Virus record (IMG/VR): IMGVR_UViG_3300009593_000010
Coordinates: 62,001-126,000 of that record
From: a virus
Length of the DNA: 64,000 nt
Reading direction: 5' to 3' (one strand)
Below the pieces are notes generated by a model. The model was given only the letters and a program-made list of their open reading frames with translations. It was not told the origin of the DNA and searched no databases. Made by a program: the position numbers and the translations under genes. Shown here in pieces: positions 16,792 to 54,218 of the stretch (the first letter of the stretch is position 1; every line of letters begins with the position of its first letter).

Positions 16792-16819
16792 TTGACAAAT
16801 ATCAATATTATGAGATAAT
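16792..16819 (+). promoter_or_regulatory. Class B promoter for gp55
   Basis: TTGACA (16792-16797), 16-nt spacer, GATAAT (16814-16819). The predicted transcription start coincides with the gp55 ATG at 16826, giving a leaderless mRNA. Confidence 0.7.
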
Positions 16820-16825
16820 AAGCTT

Positions 16826-17377
16826 ATGACTGAGAAAAAGAAACCAGAACATTATGTAAACAATAAAGAGTTTACTGCAGCCATTACTGCACATAACATT
16901 GCAGTGAAAGAAGCAGTTAAAGCTGGAAAAGAACCACCTCGTGTAACTGAATATATTGGGGAGTGTATCTATAAGATTGCAACTAGGTTATCAACCAAAC
17001 CAAACTTCATTAACTATTCCTATAGGGATGAAATGATTTGTGATGGTATTGAGAACTGTTTGCAGTATATAAACAACTTTAATCCAGAAAAATCTAGTAA
17101 TGCTTTTGCATATATTACTCAGATCATATATTATGCATTTCTTCGTAGGATACAGAAAGAAAAGAAACAATCTGCAATCAAGCAGAAAGCAATTATGCAA
17201 GCAGGTGTATTATTCGATGCCGTAGGTACTATGGACGGAGATGATAGACAATACACTAATTCATATGTAGACTTTCTTCAAGAGAACATGAACGAAGTGA
17301 ACTATAAACCAAGAGGCAAAAAACCAAAAGAGAAATCTAGTAAAGGCGTAGAGAACTTTTATCAGTCCACCAAATAA
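16826..17377 (+). CDS. 55: Late transcription sigma factor (gp55)
   Basis: This 183-aa protein is the size of T4 gp55 (185 aa). It has a sigma-region-2-like core around FINYSYRDEMICDGIENCLQ, then FAYITQIIYYAFLRRIQKE, which matches the gp55/sigma70 region 2 pattern for recognising the TATAAATA -10 element. It redirects host RNA polymerase to late promoters with gp33 and gp45. It shares its last base with the gp47 ATG. Confidence 0.92.
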   Translation: MTEKKKPEHYVNNKEFTAAITAHNIAVKEAVKAGKEPPRVTEYIGECIYKIATRLSTKPNFINYSYRDEMICDGIENCLQYINNFNPEKSSNAFAYITQIIYYAFLRRIQKEKKQSAIKQKAIMQAGVLFDAVGTMDGDDRQYTNSYVDFLQENMNEVNYKPRGKKPKEKSSKGVENFYQSTK

Positions 17378-18441
17378 TGAAGTTTGCAATTTTAAACGAC
17401 ACACATTGTGGTGTTCGTAATGACAATGTACAATTCCACGAATATCAAAGAAAATTCTATGAGGATATATTCTTTCCTTATCTTTTAGAGAATGATATTA
17501 AGCATATCGTTCATCTGGGAGATTACTTTGATAAACGAACTGGAATTAATTTCCTATCACTCCAAAAAAACAAAGAACACTTTATAGATCATCTAGTGAA
17601 GTATGATATATCTATGGACTTGATTCTCGGTAATCATGATCTATATTATAAGAATACATCAGAGGTTAATAGTCCACAGTCCCTATTAGAAGGTAAAGCA
17701 AAAATAGAAATCTATGGTGATATTATTACTAAGGATTATGATGGACTACTTATAACATTAGTGCCTTGGATTCATAGAAACAACATTGAAGAGACTGTAG
17801 AACACATTGAATTGACTAAAGGTCAAGTTGCAATGGGACACTTAGAAATTGAAGGTGCAATGATGATGCCAGGCTATTATAGTAGTCATGGTATGAACTT
17901 AGATACTTTCAAAAGGTTTGAACAAGTCTATAGTGGACACTTCCACACCAAATCAGAGATGGGTAATTTAAGATACTTGGGTGCTCAAATGCAGTTCACA
18001 TGGAACGACTTTGGTGATATTAAATCCTTCCACATCTATAATACAGACGATAGATCAATTTTTCCAGTAGTAAACCCTATTACAATGTTTGAAAAGGTAT
18101 TCTATGATGACAGTAAATGGGCATTAGAAGATATACAGGGAATGGAGTTCTCAGATTTAACAGATAAGTTTGTTAAGGTCATTGTACAAAGTAAAGACCA
18201 ACCTTATTGGTTTGATATGTACATCGATAAAATAACAAAAGCAAATCCTATTGATTTAAAAATTGTGGAAGATCATGGGAATATAGATTTACTAAACGAT
18301 GATGAAGCACTTGCAGATGCAGAAGACACATTAACAATTTTAACAAAACATATAGATCAAATGGAGATCAGTGGGGACAAAACAAAACTTGATACATTAA
18401 TGAGGTCGTTATATACGGAAGCATTAGATACGAGTTTTTAG
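17377..18441 (+). CDS. 47: Recombination nuclease subunit, Mre11-like (gp47)
   Basis: This 354-aa metallophosphoesterase shows all Mre11 motifs: NDTHCGVRND (residues 5-14), HLGDYFDKR (about 46-54), LGNHDLYY (about 84), HLEIEG, and SGHFHTK. With gp46 it forms the nuclease that resects ends for recombination-dependent replication. The length equals T4 gp47 (339 aa). Confidence 0.96.
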   Translation: MKFAILNDTHCGVRNDNVQFHEYQRKFYEDIFFPYLLENDIKHIVHLGDYFDKRTGINFLSLQKNKEHFIDHLVKYDISMDLILGNHDLYYKNTSEVNSPQSLLEGKAKIEIYGDIITKDYDGLLITLVPWIHRNNIEETVEHIELTKGQVAMGHLEIEGAMMMPGYYSSHGMNLDTFKRFEQVYSGHFHTKSEMGNLRYLGAQMQFTWNDFGDIKSFHIYNTDDRSIFPVVNPITMFEKVFYDDSKWALEDIQGMEFSDLTDKFVKVIVQSKDQPYWFDMYIDKITKANPIDLKIVEDHGNIDLLNDDEALADAEDTLTILTKHIDQMEISGDKTKLDTLMRSLYTEALDTSF

Positions 18442-18677
18442 TGAAAAAAGAAATGACAAGTAATGAACACGGCATAGTTTATTCTGGTACATGGGAACAG
18501 GAAGGTCATACAGTATCTTTCATGTTAACAGAACAGGGTGATTGTAAAATAACAGAAGCTCACACATCTAGTAGATGGTCAAACAGAGGATATTCTTTGT
18601 CAAGAACAGTTAGTATTGATGATGCAATAGAGGAACAAGAACAATTGATAAAATTTGGTTATGATAAAGTTTCATAG
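18441..18677 (+). CDS. Hypothetical protein, 78 aa, between gp47 and gp46
   Basis: It starts with GTG sharing a base with the gp47 stop (TAGTG); an in-frame ATG lies four codons later. It ends inside the gp46 start region. The pattern SSRWSNRGYSLSRTVSIDDA is not recognised. T4 also has small ORFs between 47 and 46. Confidence 0.65.
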   Translation: MKKEMTSNEHGIVYSGTWEQEGHTVSFMLTEQGDCKITEAHTSSRWSNRGYSLSRTVSIDDAIEEQEQLIKFGYDKVS

Positions 18678-20373
18678 TGTAAGATATAAAAATTTTCTAT
18701 CAACAGGTTCCCAATTTACAGAAGTCTATCTCGATAAGAGAAAGAGTTGTCTTGTAGTTGGAGAAAATGGTAGTGGTAAATCAACAATGTTGGATGCATT
18801 GTGTTTTGGTTTATTTGGTAAGGGATTTAGGAAAGTACCCAAAACTGCATTAATCAATTCTGTTAATGGCAGAATGATGGTGGTTGAAGTAGAGTTTGGT
18901 ATTGGTTCTAAACAGTATAAGATAGTCAGAGGTGCAAAACCTAATATCTTTGAAGTCTATATGAATGATAGACTAATCAATCAAGATGCAAACATGAGAG
19001 ATTACCAAGAGTATCTCGAAAAACAAATCCTAAAGATGAACTATAAGGCATTTACTCAAGTGGTTATACTTGGGTCTTCAACCTTTGTTCCTTTCATGCA
19101 AATGAATACAATAGATCGTAGGGGTATAATAGAAGATATTCTGGATATAAACATATTCTCTATCATGAATGACATCCTTAAACAAAGACAATCTGCTCTC
19201 AAAGTAGAACTTAAAGACTTAGATACAGAAATAAGAATCTCAGAAGATAGGATTGATACTTATAAAAAACATATTAGTGCATTAGGGGATAGTAGACGAA
19301 ACAAGATAAGAGATTTCAGACAATCTATTGAAAAATCAGAGAAAAATATCACCAAACTACAAGAAGAATGTACTATTTTCATAGAAAAAGTAGAGGAACG
19401 ACAGCTGGTGTCGTCTGATTTTGAGGAAATACAACATAAACTACAACATACTTTAGACATGGAGAAGAGATTATCGGATGCAAAACAACGAGGTAGGAAG
19501 GAAATTACCTTCTATGAAACCACAGATGAATGTCCCACCTGTCACCATGATCTGGAAGACGAGTTCAAAAAATCCAAAATCCAGAAAGTCAGTGGAACAA
19601 TATCTGATATTGAACAAGCACTACAAGAAATCGACCAAAACATTAAAGACATCAATACCCAACTTGAAGATATCAAGTCTATACAAGAGGAAATTAATGG
19701 TATCAACAGAGACATATCTAAGAACCAGAATGAAATTTCAGCATCTCAACAATACATTACTAAGATCACTACAGAAATTACCAAATTGGAAGAAGAGAAG
19801 AGTTCAGATGATACTACAAAGTTAGATGCAGAGAAGAAGGTATTAAAGAAACATGGTGAAGATAGAGAAGTTCATATAGATAGACGACATTACTTTGATC
19901 TTGCATCTTTCTTATTGAAGGATAGTGGTATTAAGACTAAGATTGTAAAACAGTATCTACCAATCATGAATAAATTGATTAATAAGTATCTTGCATCTAT
20001 GGAGTTTTTTATCCAGTTTGAATTGGACGAGAACTTTAATGAGACTATAAAGTCAAGATATAGAGACGAGTTTAAATACGCAAACTTCTCAGAGGGTGAG
20101 AAAATGAGAATTGACCTTGCATTACTATTCACATGGAGAAGTGTTGCAAGAATGAAGAATAGTGTTAATACTAACCTATTAATGCTGGATGAAGTGTTTG
20201 ATAGTTCCCTCGATGAAGGTGGAACAGATGAATTTATGAAGATATTAACCACACTAGGACAAGACACTAATGTGTTTATTATATCACATAAGGGTGATGT
20301 TTTGAACGAGAAGTTCAGACATGTAATGAAATTTGAGAAGGTAAAAAACTTTAGTAGGATAGCAGAGACATGA
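18661..20373 (+). CDS. 46: Recombination nuclease ATPase subunit, Rad50-like (gp46)
   Basis: This 570-aa SMC-type ATPase has Walker A GENGSGKST (about residues 34-42), long coiled coils (about 165-420) with a zinc hook CPTC at about 291-294, signature FSEGEKMRIDLALL, and Walker B LLMLDEVFDSS. It partners gp47. I start at ATG 18661 (MIKFHSVRYKNFLSTG) because the ABC N-terminus begins there; a TTG two codons upstream is less likely. The length matches T4 gp46 (560 aa). Confidence 0.96.
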   Translation: MIKFHSVRYKNFLSTGSQFTEVYLDKRKSCLVVGENGSGKSTMLDALCFGLFGKGFRKVPKTALINSVNGRMMVVEVEFGIGSKQYKIVRGAKPNIFEVYMNDRLINQDANMRDYQEYLEKQILKMNYKAFTQVVILGSSTFVPFMQMNTIDRRGIIEDILDINIFSIMNDILKQRQSALKVELKDLDTEIRISEDRIDTYKKHISALGDSRRNKIRDFRQSIEKSEKNITKLQEECTIFIEKVEERQLVSSDFEEIQHKLQHTLDMEKRLSDAKQRGRKEITFYETTDECPTCHHDLEDEFKKSKIQKVSGTISDIEQALQEIDQNIKDINTQLEDIKSIQEEINGINRDISKNQNEISASQQYITKITTEITKLEEEKSSDDTTKLDAEKKVLKKHGEDREVHIDRRHYFDLASFLLKDSGIKTKIVKQYLPIMNKLINKYLASMEFFIQFELDENFNETIKSRYRDEFKYANFSEGEKMRIDLALLFTWRSVARMKNSVNTNLLMLDEVFDSSLDEGGTDEFMKILTTLGQDTNVFIISHKGDVLNEKFRHVMKFEKVKNFSRIAET

Positions 20374-21326
20374 TAGGTACTAAACATATAATGAGAGCTG
20401 ATACAGAAAGAGAAAAGGAATTAGCAACGAGGGTAGATGTTGCACCAGAGACACAGGGAAGAGTAATATTACAATCACATTGTAGAACTGGACTGTATAA
20501 AGGGTGGCAAATGATAATGCATGGGTTAATAGAGAAAGACCCATACTCTGAATATTGGGATAAGTATAGGACAGATGCATTTAGACATATTCAAAATGCA
20601 ATGGATGGATATCCATCTAGTTCTCAATACTTTGATCATATAAAAAACCCAGTAGAACCATTAATAGGAATGGCACTTTCTACCTATGGTGGTGAAAATC
20701 CTTTTGGAACTAACTTTAAAGATATTGCAAAAGAGATTAAGACTCTAAAACACCAACCACCTTTTGGAGTATTTGGTGCATTCAATGAATGGACTCTTCT
20801 GGACAGAGAAGAAATGAGAGATATTGGATATAAGTTTGTCAATCTACATCGTGCAAACATGAAAGATTGGTTCATATCTGGTCAACTTTCAATGGCAATT
20901 GGTATAAAAGGATGGCATGCATGGGATGATGAAGGGTCAGATTGGTTATTTAATAAGAGAAAATCACTATATGGTAAGTTAATAATTAACAAAGTTGCAC
21001 TGCAAACCTTCTTTTATACAGTAGATAAGTATATGGATACCCTACCTTGTGATGCATATGTGTGTTACGAGTCCTTACAGGGTGCTCCACAGGTGTTTAT
21101 GGAAGAATGCAACTTTAGTGGTAATATACCATTATTAGGGGAAATTGATTCCGAAACCAGACAAATTAGCCACCCAAACAAGAAAACATATAATATCAAA
21201 GAGGGTGAGTATGGATCAGAGTATGTTGGATACCTTGCAATGAGTGAAGATGAATTTAATGGACTATGGGATGAAACAAAACCTCATAATTATCACGATA
21301 AATATGGTATAAGTGGAATAGACTAA
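20370..21326 (+). CDS. Uncharacterised protein, 318 aa
   Basis: It starts in an ATGA overlap with gp46 and its stop overlaps the next ATG, so it is translationally coupled on both sides. It is soluble and rich in aromatic residues (WHAWDDEGSDWLFNKR, FGAFNEWTLLD). No signal peptide, membrane segment or nucleotide-binding motif is seen. I do not recognise the family. The neighbouring gene is a 2OG oxygenase. Confidence 0.8.
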   Translation: MIGTKHIMRADTEREKELATRVDVAPETQGRVILQSHCRTGLYKGWQMIMHGLIEKDPYSEYWDKYRTDAFRHIQNAMDGYPSSSQYFDHIKNPVEPLIGMALSTYGGENPFGTNFKDIAKEIKTLKHQPPFGVFGAFNEWTLLDREEMRDIGYKFVNLHRANMKDWFISGQLSMAIGIKGWHAWDDEGSDWLFNKRKSLYGKLIINKVALQTFFYTVDKYMDTLPCDAYVCYESLQGAPQVFMEECNFSGNIPLLGEIDSETRQISHPNKKTYNIKEGEYGSEYVGYLAMSEDEFNGLWDETKPHNYHDKYGISGID

Positions 21327-24816: not shown

Positions 24817-24846
24817 TTGACTGTAGGGTACATTTTTTGATATAAT
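24817..24846 (+). promoter_or_regulatory. Class A promoter for tRNA-Asp
   Basis: TTGACT, then an 18-nt spacer beginning GTAGGGTACAT, then TATAAT (24841-24846). It lies 27 nt before the mature tRNA. Confidence 0.8.
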
Positions 24847-24873: not shown

Positions 24874-24950
24874 GGTCTGGTAGTTCAATTGGTTAGAATA
24901 CTGCCCTGTCACGGCAGTGGTTGTGGGTTCGAGTCCCATCCAGATCGCCA
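24874..24950 (+). tRNA. tRNA-Asp (GTC anticodon)
   Basis: This is a 77-nt cloverleaf. The 7-bp acceptor stem is GGTCTGG/CCAGATC (one G-U), the anticodon arm is CTGCC-CTGTCAC-GGCAG with GTC at 34-36, and the T loop is TTCGAGT. The 3' CCA is encoded. Confidence 0.95.
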
Positions 24951-24958
24951 CATTCTTA

Positions 24959-24988
24959 TTGACTGTAGGGTACATAAAATTGTATAAT
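24959..24988 (+). promoter_or_regulatory. Class A promoter for the VWA/metallopeptidase gene
   Basis: TTGACT, 18-nt spacer GTAGGGTACATAAAATTG, TATAAT (24983-24988). The predicted transcription start falls on the ATG at 24995. Confidence 0.82.
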
Positions 24989-24994: not shown

Positions 24995-27454
24995 ATGAGA
25001 GAAAACATCCCAAATATGGTAAATAGGAATCAAAAAGACAATCTTGCAAGACTCCTTGCATCAGAAGATTTAGTCATTGAACACAAAAAATGTCCTACTG
25101 CATACTTTGAATTGAAGGCAAGGAAACTTGTTTGTCCAATTCTTAAAGACGATATGTCGTCTAATCTTTATGACTTGTTTATGGGTCATGAAGTTGGTCA
25201 TGCATTAAATACTCCAGAAGAAGGATGGCATTCTGCAGCTTCTAAAAAAGGTGCAAAATATAGAGGATACCTTAATGTCCTAGAGGATGTTAGGATCGAA
25301 AAAGCAATCAAAGAAAAATATGCTGGACTTCGTAGATGTTTCTACGATGCATATAAAGAATTACATCATGATCTTGACTTCTTTGGAGTCAAAAAAATGA
25401 ATGTAAATAAACTTGCATTTATCGATAGAATCAATCTTTATTTTAAAGTTGGTCACTCCTTAATGGTAGATTTCTCTCCAACAGAATTAAAAATAATCAA
25501 CACTATAGCAACCAAAATGGATACTTGGGAAAAAGTTGTGATCATGGCAGATCACTTGTTTGAACTTTCCAAGTTAGAAGATGTTGAGCCTCAAGAACAA
25601 CCAAACCCAATGCAAGTTCCACAATTTGACGATGAAGATGGTACTCCAGAATCAGACGATGAATCTGAGTCTATGCCAATGGGTGGTGATGATGAAGAAA
25701 ATGAAGAAGGTGAAGATGGTGAATCTTCATCTGGTAATGAACCTTCGGATGAAGATGCTGAAGGAGAATCAGATAGTTCAGAATCTTCGGATGAAAAAGA
25801 TGAAGATGATAACACCACTGATGGTGAGGGTACTGAAAAATCAGATGAAGATGAACAAGTTGAATCATCTAAAGAAGGTGGTCAAGATGGTGGTGAGGCA
25901 AATGAGTCTATCACTGATAAGAATTCAAGAGAAAATGAGAAGGATTTCCTTCATGAAGATAATGATACTACTTACGGCACTGATAACGAATACTACGAGT
26001 TAAATACTTCCAATTGGAAATTTCAAGATCATAAAGTTGGGTACAAACAAATCTTTGCAGATTTTGATAATTACTGGAATACTAATACTTATACAAATGA
26101 ACAATACGATTCAGAGACAGACTCTTATGTAAGTGTAGGTCTTAACGATACTACTGATGCAGAAAGATATGTTAATGAGTTTATGTCTCATAACCAAAAG
26201 ATTGTCAATTACATGGCAAAAGAATTTGATATGAGAAAAGCTGCAGCAATGTACAAAAGATCAAGGTCTGCCAAGTCTGGTGAGATCGATATGAGTAAAA
26301 TCCAAAACTACTTAATTAAAGATGATATCTTTAAAAGAGTTAACATCGTTCCAGATGGTAAAAATCATGGTATGATCATGTTGCTTGACTGGTCTGGATC
26401 AATGAGTGATTGCATTAAAGAAACAGTTGAACAATGTGTGATCCTTGCAATGTTTTGCAGAAGAGTTGGTATTCCTCATAGAGTTTATGCATTCAGTGAT
26501 GCATACAACAAAAGAAATGGTAAAAGATTTCTTGGTCAAAAAATTTGGAATGAAGATGATCAAAAATTAGAAGGTGAAGAAAGAACTGCCCAAAGTGATT
26601 TTCGTCATGAAGAAGCAAGAGCAGAAGTTAAAGCTGTTATTGAAAGAGGTGATGCTTATGTTGGTAAAACAAGATTATTAGAATTCTTCTCAGACAAAAT
26701 GAATAATAACGATTTCAAAAAAATGTTAGTCAATGTTTTCTGTGCAGTCGAATCAATGAATTATAGCAGAAGAAAAGGTGAGTTTGCAAATCCAATGTCT
26801 TATGCTCCAGATAACTACAGACTCGGTGGAACACCACTTGATGAAAGTTTACTGATAATGAGAGATTACATTGTAGATTTCAAAATAAACTACAACCTTG
26901 ATAAACTTCAATTCGTGACTCTTACAGATGGATCAAGTTTTGATGCTAATGGACTGAACTACAAACATGGTAATTCAAAATTCCACGATAGAAAAGCAAG
27001 AAAAACTTACGAATACAATTCAAGATATGGTAGAAGGTATGGTGCCCTTAAAGGTTCTGGAACTGATACTTTACTTAACTGGATAGAAGATACCACTGGT
27101 GTTGATACAGTTGGGTTCTTTATTTGTGGTCAAGGGTACAGAGACTTTGATAGTGCTTGTAATCAGTTTTCAAAAATGGACTTGGATTACAGTGAAGAGT
27201 ACGAAAGAAACCAAGAAGGTCATAAAATCTTCAAAAAAGAAGGTGGATACAAATTAGAATGTGGGCCATTGTCTGGATACAAAGAGTTCTATCTTTTAAA
27301 CAAAAAGAAAATGCAGATCGATACTGATGCAGACAACCTCAATGTAGAAGAGGGTGCATCTAAACAAAAACTTAAAGGTGCAATGCTGAGAATGGGTAAA
27401 AACAAACTTGCTCAAAGAAAAATCCTTCAACACTTCATTAAGAAGGTTGCTTGA
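24995..27454 (+). CDS. Metallopeptidase-VWA protein (CobT-like)
   Basis: This 819-aa protein has three parts. The N-terminal domain has zinc-peptidase motif HEVGH (65-69) followed by a short helical region. A very acidic Glu/Asp/Ser linker covers about residues 195-320. The C-terminal von Willebrand A domain has the MIDAS motif DWSGSMS (from D465) and a TDGSS loop. The next gene is a MoxR/CobS-like AAA+ ATPase, and such VWA-ATPase pairs usually remodel or insert metals into a target. ATG 24995 is the first possible start after the promoter; ATG 25016 is an alternative. Confidence 0.85.
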   Translation: MRENIPNMVNRNQKDNLARLLASEDLVIEHKKCPTAYFELKARKLVCPILKDDMSSNLYDLFMGHEVGHALNTPEEGWHSAASKKGAKYRGYLNVLEDVRIEKAIKEKYAGLRRCFYDAYKELHHDLDFFGVKKMNVNKLAFIDRINLYFKVGHSLMVDFSPTELKIINTIATKMDTWEKVVIMADHLFELSKLEDVEPQEQPNPMQVPQFDDEDGTPESDDESESMPMGGDDEENEEGEDGESSSGNEPSDEDAEGESDSSESSDEKDEDDNTTDGEGTEKSDEDEQVESSKEGGQDGGEANESITDKNSRENEKDFLHEDNDTTYGTDNEYYELNTSNWKFQDHKVGYKQIFADFDNYWNTNTYTNEQYDSETDSYVSVGLNDTTDAERYVNEFMSHNQKIVNYMAKEFDMRKAAAMYKRSRSAKSGEIDMSKIQNYLIKDDIFKRVNIVPDGKNHGMIMLLDWSGSMSDCIKETVEQCVILAMFCRRVGIPHRVYAFSDAYNKRNGKRFLGQKIWNEDDQKLEGEERTAQSDFRHEEARAEVKAVIERGDAYVGKTRLLEFFSDKMNNNDFKKMLVNVFCAVESMNYSRRKGEFANPMSYAPDNYRLGGTPLDESLLIMRDYIVDFKINYNLDKLQFVTLTDGSSFDANGLNYKHGNSKFHDRKARKTYEYNSRYGRRYGALKGSGTDTLLNWIEDTTGVDTVGFFICGQGYRDFDSACNQFSKMDLDYSEEYERNQEGHKIFKKEGGYKLECGPLSGYKEFYLLNKKKMQIDTDADNLNVEEGASKQKLKGAMLRMGKNKLAQRKILQHFIKKVA

Positions 27455-27455: not shown

Positions 27456-27485
27456 TTGACTGTAGGGTACATAAAAGTGTATAAT
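27456..27485 (+). promoter_or_regulatory. Class A promoter for the AAA+ gene
   Basis: TTGACT, 18-nt spacer GTAGGGTACATAAAAGTG, TATAAT (27480-27485). It starts directly after the VWA stop codon. The predicted start of transcription is at ATG 27492 of a 10-codon micro-ORF. Confidence 0.82.
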
Positions 27486-27491: not shown

Positions 27492-27524
27492 ATGAAAGAT
27501 TATTTAAAAAAAGGAGAACTATGA
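27492..27524 (+). CDS. Leader micro-ORF, 10 aa, overlapping the AAA+ start
   Basis: ATG 27492 lies at the predicted 5' end of the mRNA and opens MKDYLKKGEL, whose TGA overlaps the AAA+ ATG (ATGA). The micro-ORF contains the AAAAGGAG Shine-Dalgarno of the AAA+ gene. The same design recurs at 58828 and 49154. Confidence 0.5.
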   Translation: MKDYLKKGEL

Positions 27525-28714
27525 ATTTAAATGCAAATCATTATAGGTTCTTAGATGCTTGTGCAGAACAAATGCCCGGCACTACGGAATTTAGTAAATC
27601 AACAGTGAGGAAAGTATGTGATACTGCTGGTATCCCATTCCCATCATGGTTGATTAGAAAACCCCAGTTTAAAGCTGGTTATGGTACTTACTCGATTGAG
27701 AGTATTGTTTCGGCGGGTTATACCTCAACTCCAGCAGTTGCAAATGCAACTCCAACAACACCAAGTGTTGATGTGGTTCCTGTTCCACAGGCCCCAGTTG
27801 GGTTTAATGTTTTGGATGATAATATTAATATTATTCCTTCAAAGATTCCTAATTATGTCCCTTTTGGACATTTTAACGATTTAAAGAAAATCCTAAAATC
27901 TGGAATTTTCTTCCCAGTTTTCATAACTGGACTTTCTGGAAACGGAAAAACTTTAATGGTTGAACAATTATGTGCTCAAATCAGACGAGAACTTTTCAGA
28001 GTTAACTTTACAGAAGAAACTTGTGAAGATGATTTGATTGGTTCCAACACTTTGGTGAATGGAAACATCATGTTTAGAGAAGGCCCAGTCCTTAAAGCAA
28101 TGAGGAAAGGTGCTGTTCTTCTTCTTGATGAAGTCGATCTTGGTTCTAACAAGATCATGTGCTTACAATCCATCTTGGAAGGTAAAGGATACTTAATCAA
28201 AAAGACTGGTGAAATGGTCGAACCTGCTGAGGGTTTCACAATTTGTGCAACTGCAAATACAAAAGGTAAAGGTTCTGAGGATGGAAGGTTCATAGGAACC
28301 AACATCTTGAATGAAGCATTCCTTGAAAGGTTTGCAATCACTTTGGAACAAGAATATCCACCAGTGAGAACTGAACAAAAAATTGTCAAGAAAGAATTTG
28401 AACTTCTGGATTGTGTGGATGATGAATTTGCAGAGAACCTAGTTAACTGGGCTGATGTAATCAGAAAATCCTTCTACGAAGGTGCAGTTGATGAAGTGAT
28501 CTCAACTAGAAGACTGGTTCACATTGCAAAAGCATTCTCAATGTTCAATGACAAAATCAAAAGTATTGAGGTTTGTCTTAACAGATTTGATGATGATACT
28601 AAATCATCATTCGTTGATCTCTACACCAAAGTTGACGCTGGGGTGTTAGGATCGGATGAATCAGAGTTTGCCACTGATAATGTGGAAGGTGAAACAGACG
28701 ATGACATTATCTAA
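27521..28714 (+). CDS. MoxR/CobS-like AAA+ ATPase
   Basis: This 397-aa protein has an N-terminal helical domain (1-65), a Pro/Val linker, and an AAA+ core with Walker A GLSGNGKT (137-144), Walker B VLLLDEVDL (199-207), sensor I ATANTKG and an Arg-finger region LNEAFLERF. It resembles CbbQ/NorQ and CobS ATPases that work with VWA partners. The partner is most likely the upstream 819-aa VWA protein. The target in the infected cell is unknown. Confidence 0.87.
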   Translation: MNLNANHYRFLDACAEQMPGTTEFSKSTVRKVCDTAGIPFPSWLIRKPQFKAGYGTYSIESIVSAGYTSTPAVANATPTTPSVDVVPVPQAPVGFNVLDDNINIIPSKIPNYVPFGHFNDLKKILKSGIFFPVFITGLSGNGKTLMVEQLCAQIRRELFRVNFTEETCEDDLIGSNTLVNGNIMFREGPVLKAMRKGAVLLLDEVDLGSNKIMCLQSILEGKGYLIKKTGEMVEPAEGFTICATANTKGKGSEDGRFIGTNILNEAFLERFAITLEQEYPPVRTEQKIVKKEFELLDCVDDEFAENLVNWADVIRKSFYEGAVDEVISTRRLVHIAKAFSMFNDKIKSIEVCLNRFDDDTKSSFVDLYTKVDAGVLGSDESEFATDNVEGETDDDII

Positions 28715-31069: not shown

Positions 31070-31097
31070 TTGACAGATAAGGAATCTGTAGTATACT
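31070..31097 (+). promoter_or_regulatory. Class B promoter
   Basis: TTGACA (31070-31075), 16-nt spacer, TATACT (31092-31097). The spacer region contains the inverted repeat ACAGAT-AAGGA-ATCTGT. The predicted start lies at ATG 31105 of the next gene. Confidence 0.82.
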
Positions 31098-31104: not shown

Positions 31105-31404
31105 ATGAATATAGAAATTAACTATAAATTTAATGAAGACAACCTTTTGGGTGAAATTAAAGATTATGTCGATGAAACTTATTCCCAACATTATGGTGGT
31201 GGTAAGTATCAAGCAACAGATATGATTCTTGATTCTGGACATGGGGAAGGCTTTGCAATCGGTAACATTATGAAGTACGCAATGAGGTATGGAAAAAAGG
31301 GTGGGAAGAATCGTCAAGATATTTTGAAGGTTGTTCACTATGCTTTGATCGCATTGCATAACCACGATGAAACTATAAATGAGGTAAATCATGAATCTAA
31401 GTAG
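31105..31404 (+). CDS. DUF3310-like protein, 99 aa
   Basis: SQHYGGGKYQATDMILDSGHGEG, FAIGNIMKYAMRYGKKGGKN and ILKVVHYALIAL match the layout of DUF3310 phage proteins (HYxG..., F...N..KY..R.GKK..., DL.K...YL). The family is often annotated as nucleotide kinase-like without firm proof. The ATG is at the predicted transcript 5' end. It overlaps gp45 by 14 nt, so gp45 is co-transcribed from this promoter. Confidence 0.75.
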   Translation: MNIEINYKFNEDNLLGEIKDYVDETYSQHYGGGKYQATDMILDSGHGEGFAIGNIMKYAMRYGKKGGKNRQDILKVVHYALIALHNHDETINEVNHESK

Positions 31405-37178: not shown

Positions 37179-37989
37179 TTTAGTTATATGTACATTTAAG
37201 AGATTGGATAAACAGATTACTCTGGGAAATATTCCAGAGAAGTTTAGAGATAATGTAACTCTTGTAGTCCAACCACAAGAGGAAGAAGAAGCAAAAAAAG
37301 TTCATTCTAATATATTTGTTCTTAATGGGGATAATATTGGATATGCAAAAACTATCGAACAGACAACAAAAGAATTTGCAGTAAATCGTAATAATCATTT
37401 TTGGTTGTTTGATGATGATTTAACTTTTAGATTCAATGAGGAAATAGAAGTAGGGGTCAAGGGAAAGAAACATAAATTTACAGAACAACATTTTGAACAA
37501 ATGTTAATAGAAATTGAAAAAGAATTAGACTCTGGAATGATGCATGGTGCATTAGGAACAACTTGGGTATTTCCTTGGGGCAAACTTCCATATGTTGAAA
37601 ACAGTAGAATGTGTGGAAATAAAATCTACAATAAAGACCTTGCAAAAGTCTGGAACGATATTGACTGGGTTGGATGTTGTGGTGCAGAAGATTTCTTTGT
37701 AAACATACAATTATTAACTATGGGATATTCAAACAAGGTATGGTATAATTATGTTATTGATCCCGGCCACAGTTATCAAGATGGTGGTTGTTCTGATTAT
37801 AGAGATTTAGAATACCACAATAAAGCATGTAAAGACCTTGCAGAATTATATCCACAGTTTACTAGACTTAAAACTAATATTCAAAAGTCTGGGCCTTGGA
37901 AGGGTGTAGAAAAATTAGGAGTTCATGTGCAATGGAAAAAAGCATATGAATCATCAAAGGTCTCGACAATAACAGATTTTATGGTATAA
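37171..37989 (+). CDS. GT-A-type glycosyltransferase, probably TET-associated
   Basis: This 272-aa protein starts at ATG 37171 (MIDLVICTFKRL); an upstream GTG is weaker. It has a GT-A start, a D-N-I-G-Y-A segment, the metal/nucleotide motif FDDDL (DDD at 81-83) and GAEDFF near residue 175. The placement after methyltransferase, TET and epimerase fits TET-associated glycosyltransferases, which glycosylate 5hmC in phage DNA. The substrate is inferred from context. Confidence 0.75.
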   Translation: MIDLVICTFKRLDKQITLGNIPEKFRDNVTLVVQPQEEEEAKKVHSNIFVLNGDNIGYAKTIEQTTKEFAVNRNNHFWLFDDDLTFRFNEEIEVGVKGKKHKFTEQHFEQMLIEIEKELDSGMMHGALGTTWVFPWGKLPYVENSRMCGNKIYNKDLAKVWNDIDWVGCCGAEDFFVNIQLLTMGYSNKVWYNYVIDPGHSYQDGGCSDYRDLEYHNKACKDLAELYPQFTRLKTNIQKSGPWKGVEKLGVHVQWKKAYESSKVSTITDFMV

Positions 37990-37990
37990 T
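37963..37990 (+). promoter_or_regulatory. Class B-like promoter before gp62 unit
   Basis: TCGACA (37963-37968), 16-nt spacer, TATAAT (37985-37990). The predicted start is ATG 37997. The -35 has one mismatch and the inverted repeat is not kept. It lies within the end of the glycosyltransferase gene. Confidence 0.6.
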
Positions 37991-37996: not shown

Positions 37997-38167
37997 ATGA
38001 ACTCAACAAACGAAAACATTCTTCAAATTATTCAATCATTTAAACTTCTTAATCCAGAGGATCAAGAAGTAGTTTTAAAGACTTTACAGAATGTAAAGAC
38101 AGATTCAAATCATTTTAAAAAAGATATTGATTCTTATCGTGCAAAGTTAGTAAGGTCTACTAAGTAA
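37997..38167 (+). CDS. Hypothetical protein, 56 aa
   Basis: ATG 37997 is at the predicted transcript start and the stop overlaps the gp62 ATG (TAATG). The protein is helical (ENILQIIQSFKLLNPEDQEV). Function unknown. Confidence 0.6.
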   Translation: MNSTNENILQIIQSFKLLNPEDQEVVLKTLQNVKTDSNHFKKDIDSYRAKLVRSTK

Positions 38168-46488: not shown

Positions 46489-48375
46489 ATGGGTAAATTC
46501 CTAACATCCTTCTGGATGGTCATTTTAGTTCTAGGTGGATTAACAACTCTTAGAATTGCAGACCCAGAGCCAATACAAAAGTTGCGAAATATAAATTTCG
46601 ATTACTACCTTACATCTAAAGAAACTACCACTTCAAGTGACATTGTACTACTTGATGTTGCAGAAAGTAGTTTAGAACTCAAAGGTCAATATCCATTTCC
46701 CAGAACAGAATGGGCTCAAATGATTTCAGATTTAAGAAATGCAAATGCTGGAATGATTGGATTTACAGTAATGTATCCAGAAATTGATAGGTTTGGGGGT
46801 GATGAGGTTTTCGTCTCGTGGGTTAATGGTAATGGTATCATTTTATCCCAGACTTCATCACCTAAAGGTAGGAGTGATATTGCACCATTTGTAGGAACTG
46901 CCGTCTTAGGGGATGGAGACCCATATAATTTTGCATATGAATATCAAGGTGTAGTCACTAACATTCCAAAACTAGAAGAAGCTGCATGGGGTGTTGGTAT
47001 GTTAAATTCTGCACCAGAGGTGGATGGAATCGTAAGACGAATACCTTTAGTCACTCAAGTTAATAATCAATTATATCCAAGTTTCCCTATGGAAGTTATT
47101 CGTGCAACTCAACAGAATAAAGGATACACCATGAAGGTAGAACCTTCTGGGATAGAGAATTTTAGAATACCACCTTATGAACCAGTGGTGACAGATGAAA
47201 CTGGTAGTTTATATGTAGACTGGTCTAAGTCTTTTCCTCGACATGAGTACGGGCAACCACTTCCCAATCTTGAGGGACGAACAGTGATTGTTGGTTTGAC
47301 AGCAGAGGGCATAGTTCCCATTGTTTCGAGTCCGATGGGTGGGGTGTATCCTCATGATATTCAGGCATCTGCGATTCAGACAATATTGGATGGGGTCTCC
47401 ATTTCTCGTCCTTATTGGGGTTCCCTTCTGGAAATAGTTTTAACTCTAATTGGGTCTCTGGTCTTGGTATTTTCGATTTATCGATTCTCCGTTTTAACAT
47501 CTGCACTCGTCTCCGGCCTTGTCGTTGCTGGTGTAGGTTTCTTGCCCTTGTTCTTCTGGACTTCATCAAGTTTCCTTATTGATTTAACATTCCCAATTAT
47601 AACACTAATACTCATATTTAGTCAATCGAGTTTTAATAACTTCTATGTACAGTTCAAATTAAGACAACAAATTAAAGGTCAGTTTGGTACTTACCTATCA
47701 CCAGACATGGTAGACATGCTGGTCAAAGACCCATCATTAATGAAACTAGGTGGGGATAGAAAAGAGATGACATTCTTATTCGCAGACATTGTAGGGTTCA
47801 CTCCTATAAGCGAGTCTTATATGAAGAGGGATGATCCAGAAGGTTTAGTAGAACTTATCAATATGTTCTTAGATAGAATGACAAAGGTTATTCTCAAAAA
47901 TGGTGGAACCATCGACAAGTATATGGGCGATTGTATCATGGCTTTCTGGAATGCTCCTCTACCATGTGAAGATCATGCAACTTTAGCAGTTAAAACTGCA
48001 ATGGAAATAGAATTACTTACGGAACAAATGAATAAAGAGATTAAAGAGTCTGGATTAGAATTACCACCAGTGGTTATTGGTACAGGTATTAATACTGGCC
48101 CATGTATCGTAGGAAATATGGGAAGTGAATCCAGATTTGATTATTCAGTGGTCGGCGATGCTGTGAATCTGGGTGCTAGATTAGAAGTACAAACTAGGAC
48201 ATATGATACACCTATCCTACTATCTGAATACACTTACATGCAATCTGATGTACCTTGTAAAGAACTTGACACTATTAAGGTAAAGGGTAAGGATGAACCA
48301 GTTAAAATATTTGCACCATTGTTTGAAATGCCTTTTGGGAATAGAAAAGAAGTACGGAAGTTAATTAAAACTTGA
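46489..48375 (+). CDS. CHASE2-domain class III adenylate/guanylate cyclase
   Basis: This 628-aa membrane protein has an N-terminal membrane helix and an extracytoplasmic CHASE2 domain (about 35-310: VLLDVAESSLEL, YPFPRTEWAQMI, GFTVMYPEID). Three closely spaced helices follow (about 312-385), then a cytoplasmic cyclase domain (about 420-600). The cyclase keeps FADIVGFT (metal Asp, about 433), KYMGDCIMAFW (second metal Asp, about 480), and DAVNLGARLE (transition-state Asn/Arg). It should be catalytically competent and make cAMP or cGMP. The ligand is unknown. Confidence 0.9.
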   Translation: MGKFLTSFWMVILVLGGLTTLRIADPEPIQKLRNINFDYYLTSKETTTSSDIVLLDVAESSLELKGQYPFPRTEWAQMISDLRNANAGMIGFTVMYPEIDRFGGDEVFVSWVNGNGIILSQTSSPKGRSDIAPFVGTAVLGDGDPYNFAYEYQGVVTNIPKLEEAAWGVGMLNSAPEVDGIVRRIPLVTQVNNQLYPSFPMEVIRATQQNKGYTMKVEPSGIENFRIPPYEPVVTDETGSLYVDWSKSFPRHEYGQPLPNLEGRTVIVGLTAEGIVPIVSSPMGGVYPHDIQASAIQTILDGVSISRPYWGSLLEIVLTLIGSLVLVFSIYRFSVLTSALVSGLVVAGVGFLPLFFWTSSSFLIDLTFPIITLILIFSQSSFNNFYVQFKLRQQIKGQFGTYLSPDMVDMLVKDPSLMKLGGDRKEMTFLFADIVGFTPISESYMKRDDPEGLVELINMFLDRMTKVILKNGGTIDKYMGDCIMAFWNAPLPCEDHATLAVKTAMEIELLTEQMNKEIKESGLELPPVVIGTGINTGPCIVGNMGSESRFDYSVVGDAVNLGARLEVQTRTYDTPILLSEYTYMQSDVPCKELDTIKVKGKDEPVKIFAPLFEMPFGNRKEVRKLIKT

Positions 48376-48399
48376 CAGATCAAGAATCTGTAGTATACT
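48372..48399 (+). promoter_or_regulatory. Class B promoter
   Basis: TTGACA (48372-48377), 16-nt spacer, TATACT (48394-48399), with the inverted repeat ACAGAT-CAAGA-ATCTGT. The start of transcription is about 5 nt before ATG 48411. Confidence 0.82.
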
Positions 48400-48410: not shown

Positions 48411-48542
48411 ATGATAAAAGTAAAAGACCCTCTACTTGAATTTAGATTAGGTAGTCTAAAAAGAGCAGAGAAGAGAGCAAAAAATCCAGAATTTAAAGAA
48501 TTGTGGAAAAATATTGCAAAAAACTTGAAAAATAAGGATTAG
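48411..48542 (+). CDS. Small basic protein, 43 aa
   Basis: ATG 48411 reads MIKVKDPLLEFRLGSLKRAE and onward, a basic helical protein. It has its own class B promoter and a terminator 17 nt after its stop, so it is a single-gene unit. Function unknown. Confidence 0.6.
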   Translation: MIKVKDPLLEFRLGSLKRAEKRAKNPEFKELWKNIAKNLKNKD

Positions 48543-49115: not shown

Positions 49116-49148
49116 TTGACAAATCTCCATTCTGTGGTATTATAAATA
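49116..49148 (+). promoter_or_regulatory. Overlapping class B and late promoter for the peroxiredoxin gene
   Basis: TTGACA (49116-49121), 16-nt spacer with ACAAAT...ATTCTGT, TATTAT (49138-49143). A perfect late element TATAAATA (49141-49148) overlaps the -10. The gene may be transcribed in both periods. Confidence 0.7.
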
Positions 49149-49153: not shown

Positions 49154-49198
49154 ATGAAATTAATTAAATATCGCAGAGTGGAGCTATGTCAACAATAA
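49154..49198 (+). CDS. Leader micro-ORF, 14 aa, overlapping the peroxiredoxin start
   Basis: ATG 49154 is a few nt from the predicted transcript start and reads MKLIKYRRVELCQQ. It contains the GGAG Shine-Dalgarno and overlaps the peroxiredoxin ATG (49186) by 13 nt. It matches the layout at 27492 and 58828. Confidence 0.45.
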   Translation: MKLIKYRRVELCQQ

Positions 49199-50159: not shown

Positions 50160-50417
50160 ATGTCATTTTGGAAAAGCATAGTTGACTTTTTTAACGAACC
50201 AGTTCAGGCTCCTACTCCTAAACCACAATCAAAAGTGGCCAAGAAAGTTGCTAAAAAGACTGCACCAGTTGAAACAAAAGTCACAAGAACATCAAAGGCA
50301 AATCTAGGTAAACTTACTAAACTTCAATTAGAGAAGAAAGGTAGGGAACTAGGTATTGAAATTGATCGTAGAAAATTAAAAGCTACCCTAGTGAACGAAG
50401 TTTACAAGGCACAATAA
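50160..50417 (+). CDS. Basic protein with SAP-like C-terminus, 85 aa
   Basis: This Lys-rich protein has an Ala/Pro/Lys linker and a C-terminal LTKLQLEKKGRELGIEIDRRKLKATLVNEVYK, which resembles a SAP-type helix-turn-helix DNA-binding fold. Likely binds DNA. Exact role unknown. Confidence 0.55.
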   Translation: MSFWKSIVDFFNEPVQAPTPKPQSKVAKKVAKKTAPVETKVTRTSKANLGKLTKLQLEKKGRELGIEIDRRKLKATLVNEVYKAQ

Positions 50418-50723
50418 ATGAATCTCCCAGATTACAAAATTGTTGTTAATCAACAAGGCGAACAGGGAATTGAAATTTGTGAAGGGAATTATACAGGGGT
50501 TGTTTTCACCTATGGTAAGGTTGAATTCATACCTAAAGAGGAATCAGAACAACCCAGTATAAATTTTAGTCGTGCTGTCAGAGCATGTCCAGAAGAACTT
50601 AGAGAATCCATATCAGAGGATAAAGAATTTAATCAACTGATGGGAGATATTCTAGTCCAACTATTAGAACAGGAAGGCGATAACGCCGTGGAACTATTAA
50701 GAGATGAATCTACAGAAACTTAA
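50418..50723 (+). CDS. Hypothetical protein, 101 aa
   Basis: It starts directly after the previous stop. The N-terminus is beta-rich (YKIVVNQQGEQGIEICEGNYTGVVFTYGKVEF) and the C-terminus helical and acidic. It overlaps the lysozyme by 20 nt. No function recognised. Confidence 0.65.
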   Translation: MNLPDYKIVVNQQGEQGIEICEGNYTGVVFTYGKVEFIPKEESEQPSINFSRAVRACPEELRESISEDKEFNQLMGDILVQLLEQEGDNAVELLRDESTET

Positions 50724-51144
50724 AGAAGAAATCATAAGAGACGAAGGTGTCGTTTATGAAATTTATAAAGATCATTTGGGGTATCCTACATTTGGCATAG
50801 GTCATTTAGTTAAGGATGGAGACCCAGAACAGGGACAAGAGGTTGGAACACCAGTATCAAAAGAAAGATGCGATGAAGTGTTTGAACATGATTGTGCAGA
50901 ACACATACAAGAGTGTAAAAATTTATTTACAGAACTGGATTCATATCCAGATGATGTACAAAGAGTATTGGTCAATATGACCTTTAATATGGGAGTCACA
51001 AGACTATCGAAGTTTAAAAACTTTGGAGCTGCAATAAGATCGAATGATTGGAAAAAGGCTGCAGTCGAAGGTCGTGATTCTCGTTGGTATAATCAAGTAA
51101 CCAATCGTGCAGAACGATTAATGGTAATGTTAGAGAATATATAA
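50704..51144 (+). CDS. T4-type lysozyme (endolysin)
   Basis: This 146-aa GH24 muramidase has the catalytic triad E14/D23/T29 in EGVVYEIYKDHLGYPTFGIGH, with the same E-9-D-6-T spacing as T4 E11/D20/T26. It degrades peptidoglycan at lysis. No signal peptide is seen, so it would need a holin such as the membrane proteins at 41806-42434. T4 lysozyme is 164 aa. Confidence 0.93.
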   Translation: MNLQKLKEEIIRDEGVVYEIYKDHLGYPTFGIGHLVKDGDPEQGQEVGTPVSKERCDEVFEHDCAEHIQECKNLFTELDSYPDDVQRVLVNMTFNMGVTRLSKFKNFGAAIRSNDWKKAAVEGRDSRWYNQVTNRAERLMVMLENI

Positions 51145-51467
51145 TGAAAAGTGAAGTAAAATTATTCCAGTTTGTGACTGGAGAAAATGTAGTTGGTGAG
51201 ATAGAGATGAATAACTTCTCTTCTGATGCAATTGTCACAGTAAAGAACCCTTTATTTGTAGTTGCACAACCAACAGAAGATGGAAAGAGTGTTTCAATTC
51301 AATTGATGCCTTATTCCAATCTTGCAAAGGATAATACCATTGAGGTGGTATTCAAAAATGTAGTGTGGTATTCAACTCCAGAAGATAGACTTGCAAATCA
51401 ATATGCACAGATATTTTCTACAATAGTTAAACCATCACCAGAACAAACTAAGATAGTGTCATCATGA
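51144..51467 (+). CDS. Small beta-barrel protein, 107 aa
   Basis: It overlaps the lysozyme by one base. VKLFQFVTGENVVGEIEM and onward resembles the N-terminus of the 157-aa protein at 16220 (YIRLSTGENVICIIEKV) and suggests an Sm/LSm-like fold. It may bind RNA, by inference only. Confidence 0.65.
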   Translation: MKSEVKLFQFVTGENVVGEIEMNNFSSDAIVTVKNPLFVVAQPTEDGKSVSIQLMPYSNLAKDNTIEVVFKNVVWYSTPEDRLANQYAQIFSTIVKPSPEQTKIVSS

Positions 51468-51691
51468 GTAGAGAATATAGAGACGAAATCCTTAAAGCAA
51501 CTAAATTAAGGTATGAAAGTGAAATACTATCTTCTAAAGTAAATATTGATATTATATTGTCAAATGCACAAGGTGTTGCAGAACATCCAGATTTCATAGC
51601 AACAGTTGATGTTGAACTAGATAGAATTGCAAGTGCAGAAGATAAACTTGCAGTTATAAAAAATCATTTTACTCCACCTAAGATACCATAA
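51464..51691 (+). CDS. Hypothetical protein, 75 aa
   Basis: This helical protein overlaps the preceding gene by 4 nt. It resembles conserved small proteins next to gp43 in marine T4-like phages, but I cannot name it. It ends 5 nt before the gp43 promoter. Confidence 0.65.
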   Translation: MSREYRDEILKATKLRYESEILSSKVNIDIILSNAQGVAEHPDFIATVDVELDRIASAEDKLAVIKNHFTPPKIP

Positions 51692-51696
51692 ACCCC

Positions 51697-51724
51697 TTGA
51701 CAGATAGCAGTTCTGTAGTATAAT
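51697..51724 (+). promoter_or_regulatory. Class B promoter for DNA polymerase gp43
   Basis: TTGACA (51697-51702), 16-nt spacer with ACAGATAGCAGTTCTGT, TATAAT (51719-51724). The predicted start is within 1-2 nt of the gp43 ATG at 51732, giving a leaderless mRNA. Confidence 0.85.
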
Positions 51725-51731
51725 AGGTACT

Positions 51732-54218
51732 ATGCACTTTTATACTAATGTTTCACGATATAAGAACCTAATCCTTGTTCGAGAGTTCAAGGATGGGAAG
51801 AACACTCCTAGAAAGATTGAGTATAAACCTACTCTATATCTTCCAACCAACAAAGATAGTTCATTCAGAAGTATCTCTGGGCAAAACCTAGAACCTAAAA
51901 AGTTCAATAGCATTTCTTATACAAGACCCTTCATCCACAAATATGCTGATGTTGAGGGTTTTGATATACATGGGTTTGACAGATATGAATATACATGGGT
52001 GTCTGATACATTTAAAAATGATATTGAATGGAGTATGAGAAACATCAAGATAATGAATCTTGATATTGAGTGTGAATGTGAATATGGATTCCCAGAACCA
52101 ACTCTTGCACCAGAACCAATTAATGCAATAACCTTTAAGATGTTTGGTCAACCTACCAAGTATGTTTTTGGTACTCAAGAATGGGAACATGGGGATGAAA
52201 ATATCCAATACTTTCATTGTCAGAATGAAGTGCATCTTCTTAAAACTTTCATAGAAGAATATCGTAAAGTTATGCCAGATATTATTACTGGTTGGAATGT
52301 TGATACTTTTGATATTACATATTTAATGAATCGTATCACTAAGGTAATTGATGAAAGGACTGCAAATCAACTCAGCCCTTGGGCAATAACTTCAAGTAGG
52401 GAATGGGAAACTTTTGGAAACAAACAACAATCCTACAACCTTGTAGGAGTTGAGACGATAGACTACCTTAAACTATACAGAAACTTTACTTTCAAAAATA
52501 GAGATTCTTATAAACTGGAAAACATTTCCCAGATAGAATTGGGAACTGGTAAGATAGATTATTCAGAGTTTGGTGCAATGCATCTATTCTATAAAGAGAA
52601 CTATCAAAAGTTCTTAGAATATAATGTTCGTGATGTTGATCTAGTAGAACAACTTGATAATAAGTTGGGTCTTATGGGACTAATGTGTCAGATGGCATAT
52701 ACTGCAAAGTGTAATTATTCAGATACATTTGGTATGGTTAAGTATTGGGATATTCTTATATACAATCGTTTAAGACAACAGAATATTATGGTTCCACCTA
52801 AACCTCATGGGAATAAGAGTTCTAAGTTTATTGGTGCGTATGTCAAAGACCCACAAGTTGGTTTACATGAATGGGTTATGTCTTTTGATTTGAATTCACT
52901 ATATCCTCATTTGATTATGCAGTACAATATTAGTCCAGAGACTATGCATAAGAGAAGTCAAGTTGGTGGTTATGGTGTTGATGCATTCTTAAACAAACAA
53001 GTTGAAGTGACTGGTAGTGCAACTATATGTCCAAATGGTGCAAGATTTAATAAGAATAAACAAGGGTTCCTTCCAGAGATACTTGAGTCTTTATATGATG
53101 AAAGGGTAATTTGGAAGAATAAGATGCTTGAATATCAAAAAGAATTTCAAGATACTCAAGACCAGAGTAGAAAAAATGAGTTAAATCGTGAGATTGCAAT
53201 TGCACACAACAACCAGATGGTAAGAAAGATTGCATTGAACTCTGCATATGGTGCTATGGGTAATCAGTGGTTTAGATATTTTGATCTAAAACTTGCAGAG
53301 GCAGTAACAACAAGTGGTCAACTTGCAATTAAGTGGGTAGAGAAAGCAGTTAACCAGTGGTTAAATGGATTACTCAAAACAGATGATGTAGATTATGTTA
53401 TTGCAATCGATACAGATTCTATCTATGTAAGGTTTGATGAAGTAATTAAAAAGGTTAATCCACCAGACCCACTTCAATTTCTGGATGATATATCCATTAA
53501 ACATTTTGAACAGGTTGTTATTAAAGATGCATATCAAGAACTTGCAGAATATACCAACGCATACAAGAACAAGATGCAGATGGGTAGAGAAATTATTGCA
53601 GACAAGGGAATTTGGACTGCAAAGAAAAGATATATTCTTAATGTTCTCGACAATGAAGGTGTCAGATTAAAAGAACCTAAACTCAAGATGATGGGTATTG
53701 AAACTGCAAAGACTTCAACACCTCAGTGGGTTCGTGATAAACTCGAAGATGCACTTAAAGTTGTAATGTTGGGTGATGAAAATGCAATTCATACTTTTGT
53801 AAATGAGGCAAGAGAACAGTTTAGAAAATTACCAGTTGGTGATATTGCTTTCCCTCGTTCAGTAAATGGACTTGTTGAATATTCTAATCCCAAAACAATC
53901 TATAACAAATCTACACCAATGCATGTTAGAGCATCTTTATTATTTAATCATTATCTTAAAGAGAATAACCTTTTAAATGTTCATCCAAGTATTCAATCTG
54001 GTGAGAAAATTAGATTTGTACATCTAAAAATACCAAATCCAATTCAAGAGAATGTCATAGGTTTTATAAATACTTTACCAGAGGAGTTTGATTTGGATAA
54101 CTACCTTGATTATGATAAACAATTTGATAAATCTTTCATCGAACCACTAAAACTTATACTTGAGAAGATCGGATGGTCAACAGAACCACAATCTTCCTTA
54201 GAGGATTTTTTTGGTTGA
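51732..54218 (+). CDS. 43: Family B DNA polymerase (gp43)
   Basis: This 828-aa polymerase (T4 gp43 is 898 aa) has exonuclease motifs around MNLDIECE and TGWNVDTFD. Polymerase motif A is FDLNSLYPHL (about 384-393), motif B is KIALNSAYG (about 500-508), and motif C is IDTDSIY (about 559-565). A C-terminal LEDFFG matches the gp45-binding peptide of T4-type polymerases. It replicates phage DNA with gp45, 44/62 and 41. Confidence 0.97.
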   Translation: MHFYTNVSRYKNLILVREFKDGKNTPRKIEYKPTLYLPTNKDSSFRSISGQNLEPKKFNSISYTRPFIHKYADVEGFDIHGFDRYEYTWVSDTFKNDIEWSMRNIKIMNLDIECECEYGFPEPTLAPEPINAITFKMFGQPTKYVFGTQEWEHGDENIQYFHCQNEVHLLKTFIEEYRKVMPDIITGWNVDTFDITYLMNRITKVIDERTANQLSPWAITSSREWETFGNKQQSYNLVGVETIDYLKLYRNFTFKNRDSYKLENISQIELGTGKIDYSEFGAMHLFYKENYQKFLEYNVRDVDLVEQLDNKLGLMGLMCQMAYTAKCNYSDTFGMVKYWDILIYNRLRQQNIMVPPKPHGNKSSKFIGAYVKDPQVGLHEWVMSFDLNSLYPHLIMQYNISPETMHKRSQVGGYGVDAFLNKQVEVTGSATICPNGARFNKNKQGFLPEILESLYDERVIWKNKMLEYQKEFQDTQDQSRKNELNREIAIAHNNQMVRKIALNSAYGAMGNQWFRYFDLKLAEAVTTSGQLAIKWVEKAVNQWLNGLLKTDDVDYVIAIDTDSIYVRFDEVIKKVNPPDPLQFLDDISIKHFEQVVIKDAYQELAEYTNAYKNKMQMGREIIADKGIWTAKKRYILNVLDNEGVRLKEPKLKMMGIETAKTSTPQWVRDKLEDALKVVMLGDENAIHTFVNEAREQFRKLPVGDIAFPRSVNGLVEYSNPKTIYNKSTPMHVRASLLFNHYLKENNLLNVHPSIQSGEKIRFVHLKIPNPIQENVIGFINTLPEEFDLDNYLDYDKQFDKSFIEPLKLILEKIGWSTEPQSSLEDFFG

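Follow-up and report, generated by a model that had tools for sequence, protein, structure and literature searches.

Introduction

T4-like phages are the standard example of leader-based translational control, as seen with RegA, gp43 and gp32. T4 gp43 is made from a Shine-Dalgarno (SD)-led mRNA and represses its own translation via an RNA hairpin located approximately 40 nt upstream of the start (PMC3014915). Leaderless mRNAs are described in several other systems. Specifically, Deinococcus-Thermus bacteria carry a leaderless signature in which a -10 motif lies 6–7 bp before open reading frames (ORFs) (PMC12340547), the lambda cI mRNA transcribed from P_RM is leaderless (PMC9031893), 5'-terminal AUGs and leaderless upstream ORFs (uORFs) affect downstream SD-led genes in E. 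coli and mycobacteria (PMC9031893), and phage transcripts are often leaderless according to the AR9 paper (PMC5312081). Here, we analyse a stretch of 64,000 nt (the window; bases 62001–126000 of the 129,558-base IMG/VR virus record IMGVR_UViG_3300009593_000010), in which uvsY, gp55, gp43, a phrog_480 (DUF3310-like) gene, a VWA/peptidase-like gene and a 56-aa gene start directly behind sigma70-type promoters and are predicted to give leaderless mRNAs.

The phage is a marine T4-like phage with the T4-type core genes gp43, uvsY, gp55, uvsX and gp44/gp45. Its closest isolates are the Kyanoviridae phages P-TIM68, Melnitz, Mosig and HTVC008M, all of them distant: the gp43 DNA is approximately 64–68% identical in parts to that of the nearest isolates, and the UvsY protein reaches at most 41% identity among the matches listed. 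Like the Deinococcus-Thermus genes, many genes here have a -10 element approximately 6–7 bp before the ORF, an ATG at the predicted +1 and no SD; unlike that bacterial, -10-dominated system, in which no -35 is needed, this is a lytic T4-like phage that uses full TTGACA/TATAAT promoters at a restricted gene set. With lambda cI, the predicted transcripts share a phage origin, a 5'-terminal AUG and the lack of an SD, whereas cI is one regulatory gene in a temperate phage and here several core T4-like genes are involved, with conservation across lineages. Compared with the orthologous T4 gene 43, the predicted leaderless gp43 transcript has no site for the autorepression hairpin. In the open full-text literature, we found no report of leaderless use in T4-like, cyanophage or pelagic phages. 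Leaderless translation is known elsewhere; what appears to be new is that T4-type core genes use it in a conserved manner.

Results and discussion

Promoters adjoin six start codons in the window

Promoters were scored at 12 hexamer positions against the E. coli consensus. The distance d counts the bases that separate the final base of the -10 hexamer from the A of the ATG. A near-consensus sigma70 promoter precedes the ATG by 6–7 nt at all six genes, with 5/6 or 6/6 matches in every -35 hexamer. Five of the promoters, here termed class A, have a 16-nt spacer. On the plus strand, as are all features below unless noted, they comprise TGGACA-N16-TATAAT (13671..13698, d = 6) before uvsY, which encodes the recombination mediator (13705..14151); TTGACA-N16-GATAAT (16792..16819, d = 6) before the late sigma factor gene gp55 (16826..17377); the promoter at 31070..31097 (d = 7) before the phrog_480 gene (31105..31404); TCGACA-N16-TATAAT (37963..37990, d = 6) before the 56-aa gene (37997..38167); and the 12/12 match TTGACA-N16-TATAAT (51697..51724, d = 7) before the DNA polymerase gene gp43 (51732..54218). 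The sixth, before the VWA/peptidase-like gene (phrog_459; 24995..27454), belongs to a second family, class B, and reads TTGACT, an 18-nt spacer containing GGGTACAT, and TATAAT (24959..24988, d = 6). The six starts lack an SD; the exception is an AGGT in the gp43 discriminator, which lies upstream of the predicted +1.

The preliminary description had put these six ATGs 7–8 nt after the -10, a figure that counts the A itself, and all six are found where it placed them. Its range of 16792–51735 is too narrow, as uvsY at 13705 falls outside, and its list mixes the two promoter families, the VWA site being of class B. Its assertion that the spacing is too regular for chance is borne out: 14 plus-strand promoters in the window score at least 11/12, and an ATG-initiated ORF of at least 40 codons begins at d = 6 or 7 behind 6 of the 14 (binomial p = 1.5e-7, given a background of 2% per position in the window).

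The spacing is bimodal and is retained in relatives

Promoter-to-ATG distances were collected across this genome and two related ones, for 82 promoter matches in total (chance matches included). The first ATG-initiated ORF begins at d = 6 behind 20 of them, at d = 7 behind 4 and at d = 8 behind 2; only 3 cases fall at d = 9–20, and a further 21 lie at 21–44 nt, many of them with AAGGAG or GAGG. The distance is thus bimodal, the leader being either absent or of SD length. This distribution bears on the explanation that genome compaction produced the spacing as a side effect, without functional leaderless translation. Small intergenic gaps are indeed typical of these phages; however, random packing would scatter d over 0–20, where the range of 9–20 is nearly empty, the gaps before uvsY and gp55 could fit a leader, and a 5' ATG is retained even before SD-led CobS-like genes (see below). 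We regard compaction as a very improbable explanation.

For the comparison with relatives, IMG/VR homologues were retrieved with their DNA flanks, and distinct upstream regions with d = 5–8 were counted, with expectations computed from dinucleotide-shuffled sequences. Among uvsY homologues of at least 60% identity, d is 6 in 14/14 distinct upstream regions against 0.22 expected. The spacing of d = 5–8 is present in 8/10 gp43 homologues of at least 50% identity (0.10 expected), and in gp55 homologues it is present in 25/41 at 60% identity or more (0.76 expected) and in 11/26 at 50–60% (0.54 expected). VWA homologues have d = 6 in 12 of 14 distinct regions by the strict test (0.24 expected). For gp55 the two identity ranges together give 36/67, and the expectations for all four genes sum to fewer than 2. 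The spacing is retained across homologues of 50–78% protein identity despite changing flanking DNA, and homologues without it often carry an SD. In the 146-kb relative G001, d = 6 recurs at the phrog_480 orthologue, at a 330-aa gp61-like gene and at several small genes, and in G002 a promoter nearly identical to that of the 56-aa gene precedes a gene at d = 6. The binomial test, the shuffles and the conservation across lineages together rule out chance spacing.

In the gp43 tree, the clade that contains the window is assigned the leaderless state, with 9/11 rows passing the strict test and the remaining 2/11 combining a weak -35 with a TATAAT at d = 6. At least 5 changes are required over the whole tree, which means that the leaderless state was repeatedly gained or lost. 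The Kyanoviridae isolates HTVC008M, Mosig, Melnitz, Syn9 and P-SSM3 have the same core genes, and promoters lie very near starts at HTVC008M gp43 and at some Mosig genes. In HTVC008M, Melnitz, Syn9 and P-SSM3 the gp55 gene has a leader or is SD-led, and uvsY has no start-adjacent promoter. For HTVC008M and Mosig, phages of Pelagibacter HTCC1062, start-proximal promoters also precede the peptidase and CobS-like genes, and the leaders predicted at such genes measure 0–6 nt. The trait that the preliminary description proposed for one phage spans several uncultured marine T4-like lineages.

Start codons and 5' ends

The start codon is ATG in 77/77 starts of the leaderless class. Profile alignments cover the proteins almost from their first residue: UvsY (phrog_231) and gp43 (phrog_262) match from residue 1, gp55 (phrog_234) from residue 2, the phrog_480 protein from residue 6 and the VWA protein from residue 8. 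Additionally, the N-terminus of UvsY aligns with those of Syn9, HTVC008M and Melnitz UvsY; in particular, MNLEQIQEEWKKDSVI of UvsY aligns with MNLETIQEMWKRDSVI of Syn9 UvsY, read from an ATG that precedes the annotated start, and the gp43 start M-FYTNV is common to the isolates. We considered whether the annotated starts could be wrong, such that downstream SD-led codons are used and the ATG at +1 stays untranslated. No support for this was found at the six genes, and the profile alignments and the isolate N-termini speak so clearly against wrong start codons that we rejected this candidate as scarcely credible.

Hardly any folding is predicted in the first 45 nt of the six putative mRNAs, for which the mean is -1.0 kcal/mol, compared with -5.9 kcal/mol for 401 internal Met codons. 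Nor does the ATG seem to be a mere part of the promoter: class B promoters before tRNA-Asp/Arg or an unassigned RNA in relatives of the VWA region have no ATG at d = 5–8 in 22/22 cases, which disfavours that candidate despite two exceptions elsewhere, taken up below.

As an observation on annotation, the deposited uvsY starts of Syn9 (L340:5800) and P-SSM3 (L344:20001) look 8 codons too short, and the upstream in-frame ATG yields the family-type N-terminus MNLE in both.

A leaderless reading and its alternatives

Taken together, the conserved spacing, its bimodality, the exclusive use of ATG, the N-termini and the unstructured 5' ends are best explained by SD-less mRNAs with a 5'-terminal AUG at the six genes, kept by selection, and we consider this reading highly probable on the evidence of the sequences compared. 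In such a scheme, the sigma70 RNA polymerase of the host would initiate at the near-consensus phage promoters, with +1 on the A that opens the start codon or one base ahead of it. The usual spacing from -10 to +1 is 6–7 nt and A is the preferred start base; given this spacing, d = 6 would place +1 on the A of the ATG. The mRNAs of uvsY, gp55, gp43, the phrog_480 gene, the 56-aa gene and the VWA/peptidase-like gene would then begin with AUG, lack an SD and most likely be recognised by 70S ribosomes or by the 30S subunit and initiation factor 2 (IF2) with fMet-tRNA, and selection would hold the 6–7 nt spacing across the lineages. The leaderless class of genes proposed in the preliminary description thus survives as the best reading, with the restriction that it takes in only part of each promoter family.

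Several points weigh against this reading. The relatives are phylogenetically linked and hence dependent samples, and two tRNA promoters have a chance ATG near +1 (window 24817, d = 7; G002, d = 6). Slightly longer gaps also occur: the class A promoter at 48372..48399 precedes the ATG of a 43-aa gene at 48411 with d = 11 (predicted leader approximately 4 nt; in L028, d is 6 at a small gene resembling it), HTVC008M gp43 has d = 12 (predicted leader approximately 5 nt), and one gp55 group has d = 9. The gaps of d = 9–12 suggest that short leaders are tolerated. They also favour the alternative that the promoters are real and transcription starts a few bases off, so that the genes have SD-less leaders of 2–6 nt, and start-site choice is governed by both RNA polymerase and sequence. 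This alternative has to contend with a sharp peak at d = 6 with an ATG there (20/26 close cases) and with the usual distance between -10 and +1 and the preference for A given above, and we judge it improbable.

Read-through from upstream promoters could likewise yield leadered transcripts. The genes are tightly packed on one strand, and other plus-strand genes precede uvsY, gp55 and gp43, which makes read-through likely. Main expression might accordingly come from such upstream transcripts by SD-less internal initiation or coupling, the start-proximal promoters being minor or temporal. These starts have no SD, however, and the promoter is the sole upstream element conserved across relatives, for which reasons we give this alternative little credence.

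If the leaderless reading is true, leader controls of the RegA, gp43 and gp32 type cannot act alike on the polymerase, late sigma and recombination genes, and initiation must rely on recognition of the 5'-terminal AUG. The relatives would then supply, in several lineages, natural pairs of a leaderless and an SD-led version of one gene, with which hypotheses on the evolution of leaderless translation could be tested. In annotation, start-site prediction that relies on an SD may place such starts wrongly and overlook short leaderless ORFs.

Predicted 5'-terminal AUGs ahead of SD-led genes

A class B promoter at 27456..27485 has an ATG at d = 6 that opens a predicted leaderless mini-ORF of 10 codons (MKDYLKKGEL and stop; 27492..27524). 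The mini-ORF holds the SD of the CobS/AAA-like gene (phrog_249; 27521..28714) and overlaps its start in an ATGA. The ATG at d = 6 is found in 14/14 distinct relatives retrieved by the conserved start sequence, with the gene's own SD-led start 29–39 nt downstream. It is in frame with that start in 9 of them (distances 33, 36 and 39), giving an N-terminal extension of 11–13 residues, and in the other 5, the window included, it opens a mini-ORF of 10–12 codons whose stop overlaps the start as ATGA (at 29 or 35 nt); no relative (0/14) uses the remaining frame. This frame behaviour is what would be expected if ribosomes truly start at the 5'-terminal AUG. In G002, the gap before the CobS-like gene is much longer, and a 37-codon ORF runs from the ATG at d = 6. 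The records in which the 5'-terminal AUG was seen before the CobS-like gene are L306–L339.

The geometry of a leaderless uORF, a short ORF ending on a downstream start, recurs at other loci. At 58792..58821, a class B promoter has an ATG at d = 6 that begins the predicted leaderless mini-ORF MVNNFLIRRK (58828..58860), the stop of which overlaps the GTG start of gene 58860–59135 (TAGTG). A further mini-ORF at d = 6 lies near 6996 on the minus strand of L062, and at the redoxin-like locus of G002 a 5' ATG at d = 6 opens a 13-codon ORF ending in ATGA. At the CobS-like gene and a few others, the 5' AUG would open an N-terminal extension or a 10–13-codon mini-ORF ending on the SD-led start, and the leaderless and SD modes of initiation may thereby be coupled. 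Compared with the uORFs of E. coli and mycobacteria, the arrangement at the CobS-like gene is conserved in two frames, as fusion or as ATGA coupling.

A more far-reaching idea is a dedicated second initiation channel, in which the core genes would be initiated only from the 5' AUG, the AUG before the CobS-like gene would be coupled to its SD start, and the balance between leaderless and SD initiation, governed by the ribosome, initiation factor or phage bS21 state of the infected cell, would determine timing or isoform and replace T4 leader-based control such as gp43 autorepression. We put this forward tentatively and consider it rather doubtful. A bS21 homologue is encoded at L061:9245-9376, behind a gp33-like gene that has a class A promoter, and others are present in G001 and G004 (2/3 relatives searched), HTVC008M and Mosig; a link between phage bS21 and leaderless initiation is speculation.

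Two promoter families and their other targets

Class A follows the pattern TTGACARAT-N5-WTYTGTRG-TATAAT with a 16-nt spacer and contains TYTGTRGTATAAT. It serves uvsY, gp55, the phrog_480 gene, the 56-aa gene, gp43, uvsX, a redoxin gene and the gp33-like gene (L061:8634, a label assigned by eye and not by search). Class B follows TTGACW-N18 with GGGTACAT ahead of TATAAT and serves the VWA and CobS-like genes, gene 58860, tRNA-Asp and genes elsewhere in the record. Because both families also drive tRNAs and leadered genes (uvsX at 54883, the gp33-like gene and the CobS-like gene at 27521), the promoter class is not identical with the leaderless class. uvsX (54883..55941) provides a contrast: its class A promoter at 54823..54850 has d = 32, and an SD-like GAGG is present in the relatives G001 and G002. 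Similarly, the class A promoter at 49116..49143 precedes the leadered redoxin gene at 49186, and an out-of-frame mini-ORF begins at 49154. The class B promoter at 24817..24846 stands upstream of tRNA-Asp(GTC) (24874..24950) and of no protein gene start. A pattern search with a 17-nt spacer gave no excess over the control; the two families have spacers of 16 and 18 nt.

Neither family supports the comparison with T4 middle genes made in the preliminary description. Where T4 middle promoters have a MotA box in place of the -35, all six sites carry a TTGACA-like -35, and neither family has the layout of T4 middle promoters, so that this candidate was rejected. The MotA/AsiA profiles PF09114 and PF09010 had no match in four records, nor in control genomes. 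Middle promoters were not identifiable in earlier pelagimyophage and Melnitz work (PMC7029224, PMC9004378).

Several class A copies contain a dyad between -35 and -10, for example ACAGAT-N5-ATCTGT (window 31073–31089) before the phrog_480 gene, and the uvsY spacer dyad ATACCAC-N4-GTGGTAT (13678–13695) is retained in most relatives. These dyads are possibly an operator for a regulator. The class A pattern was also found in further viral contigs with SD leaders, such as L060.

Additional observations

In relatives, including L309:1046, L308:1071, L329:1072 and similar sites, a conserved, transcribed-looking CGTGTGATTGAACTCCTCGTT stretch lies behind a class B promoter, ahead of the tRNA/VWA region; it has no ORF and no Rfam match and is possibly a small RNA. 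On the minus strand of the window, a perfect 12/12 sigma70 promoter with a 17-nt spacer (16758–16730) lies in the gap before gp55 and opposes the genes; no ORF lies behind it, and it may possibly give rise to an antisense or small RNA. A scan of bacterial genomes with gp43 for the host returned no match. Contig L367 (FZLS01000065.1), from the Rhodobacteraceae bin Water_Bin34, proved to be a related T4-like phage contig inside the bacterial bin and was discarded as bacterial-genome evidence for the host; its tRNA-Ala is identical to that of the window over 77 nt, a weak hint at the host.

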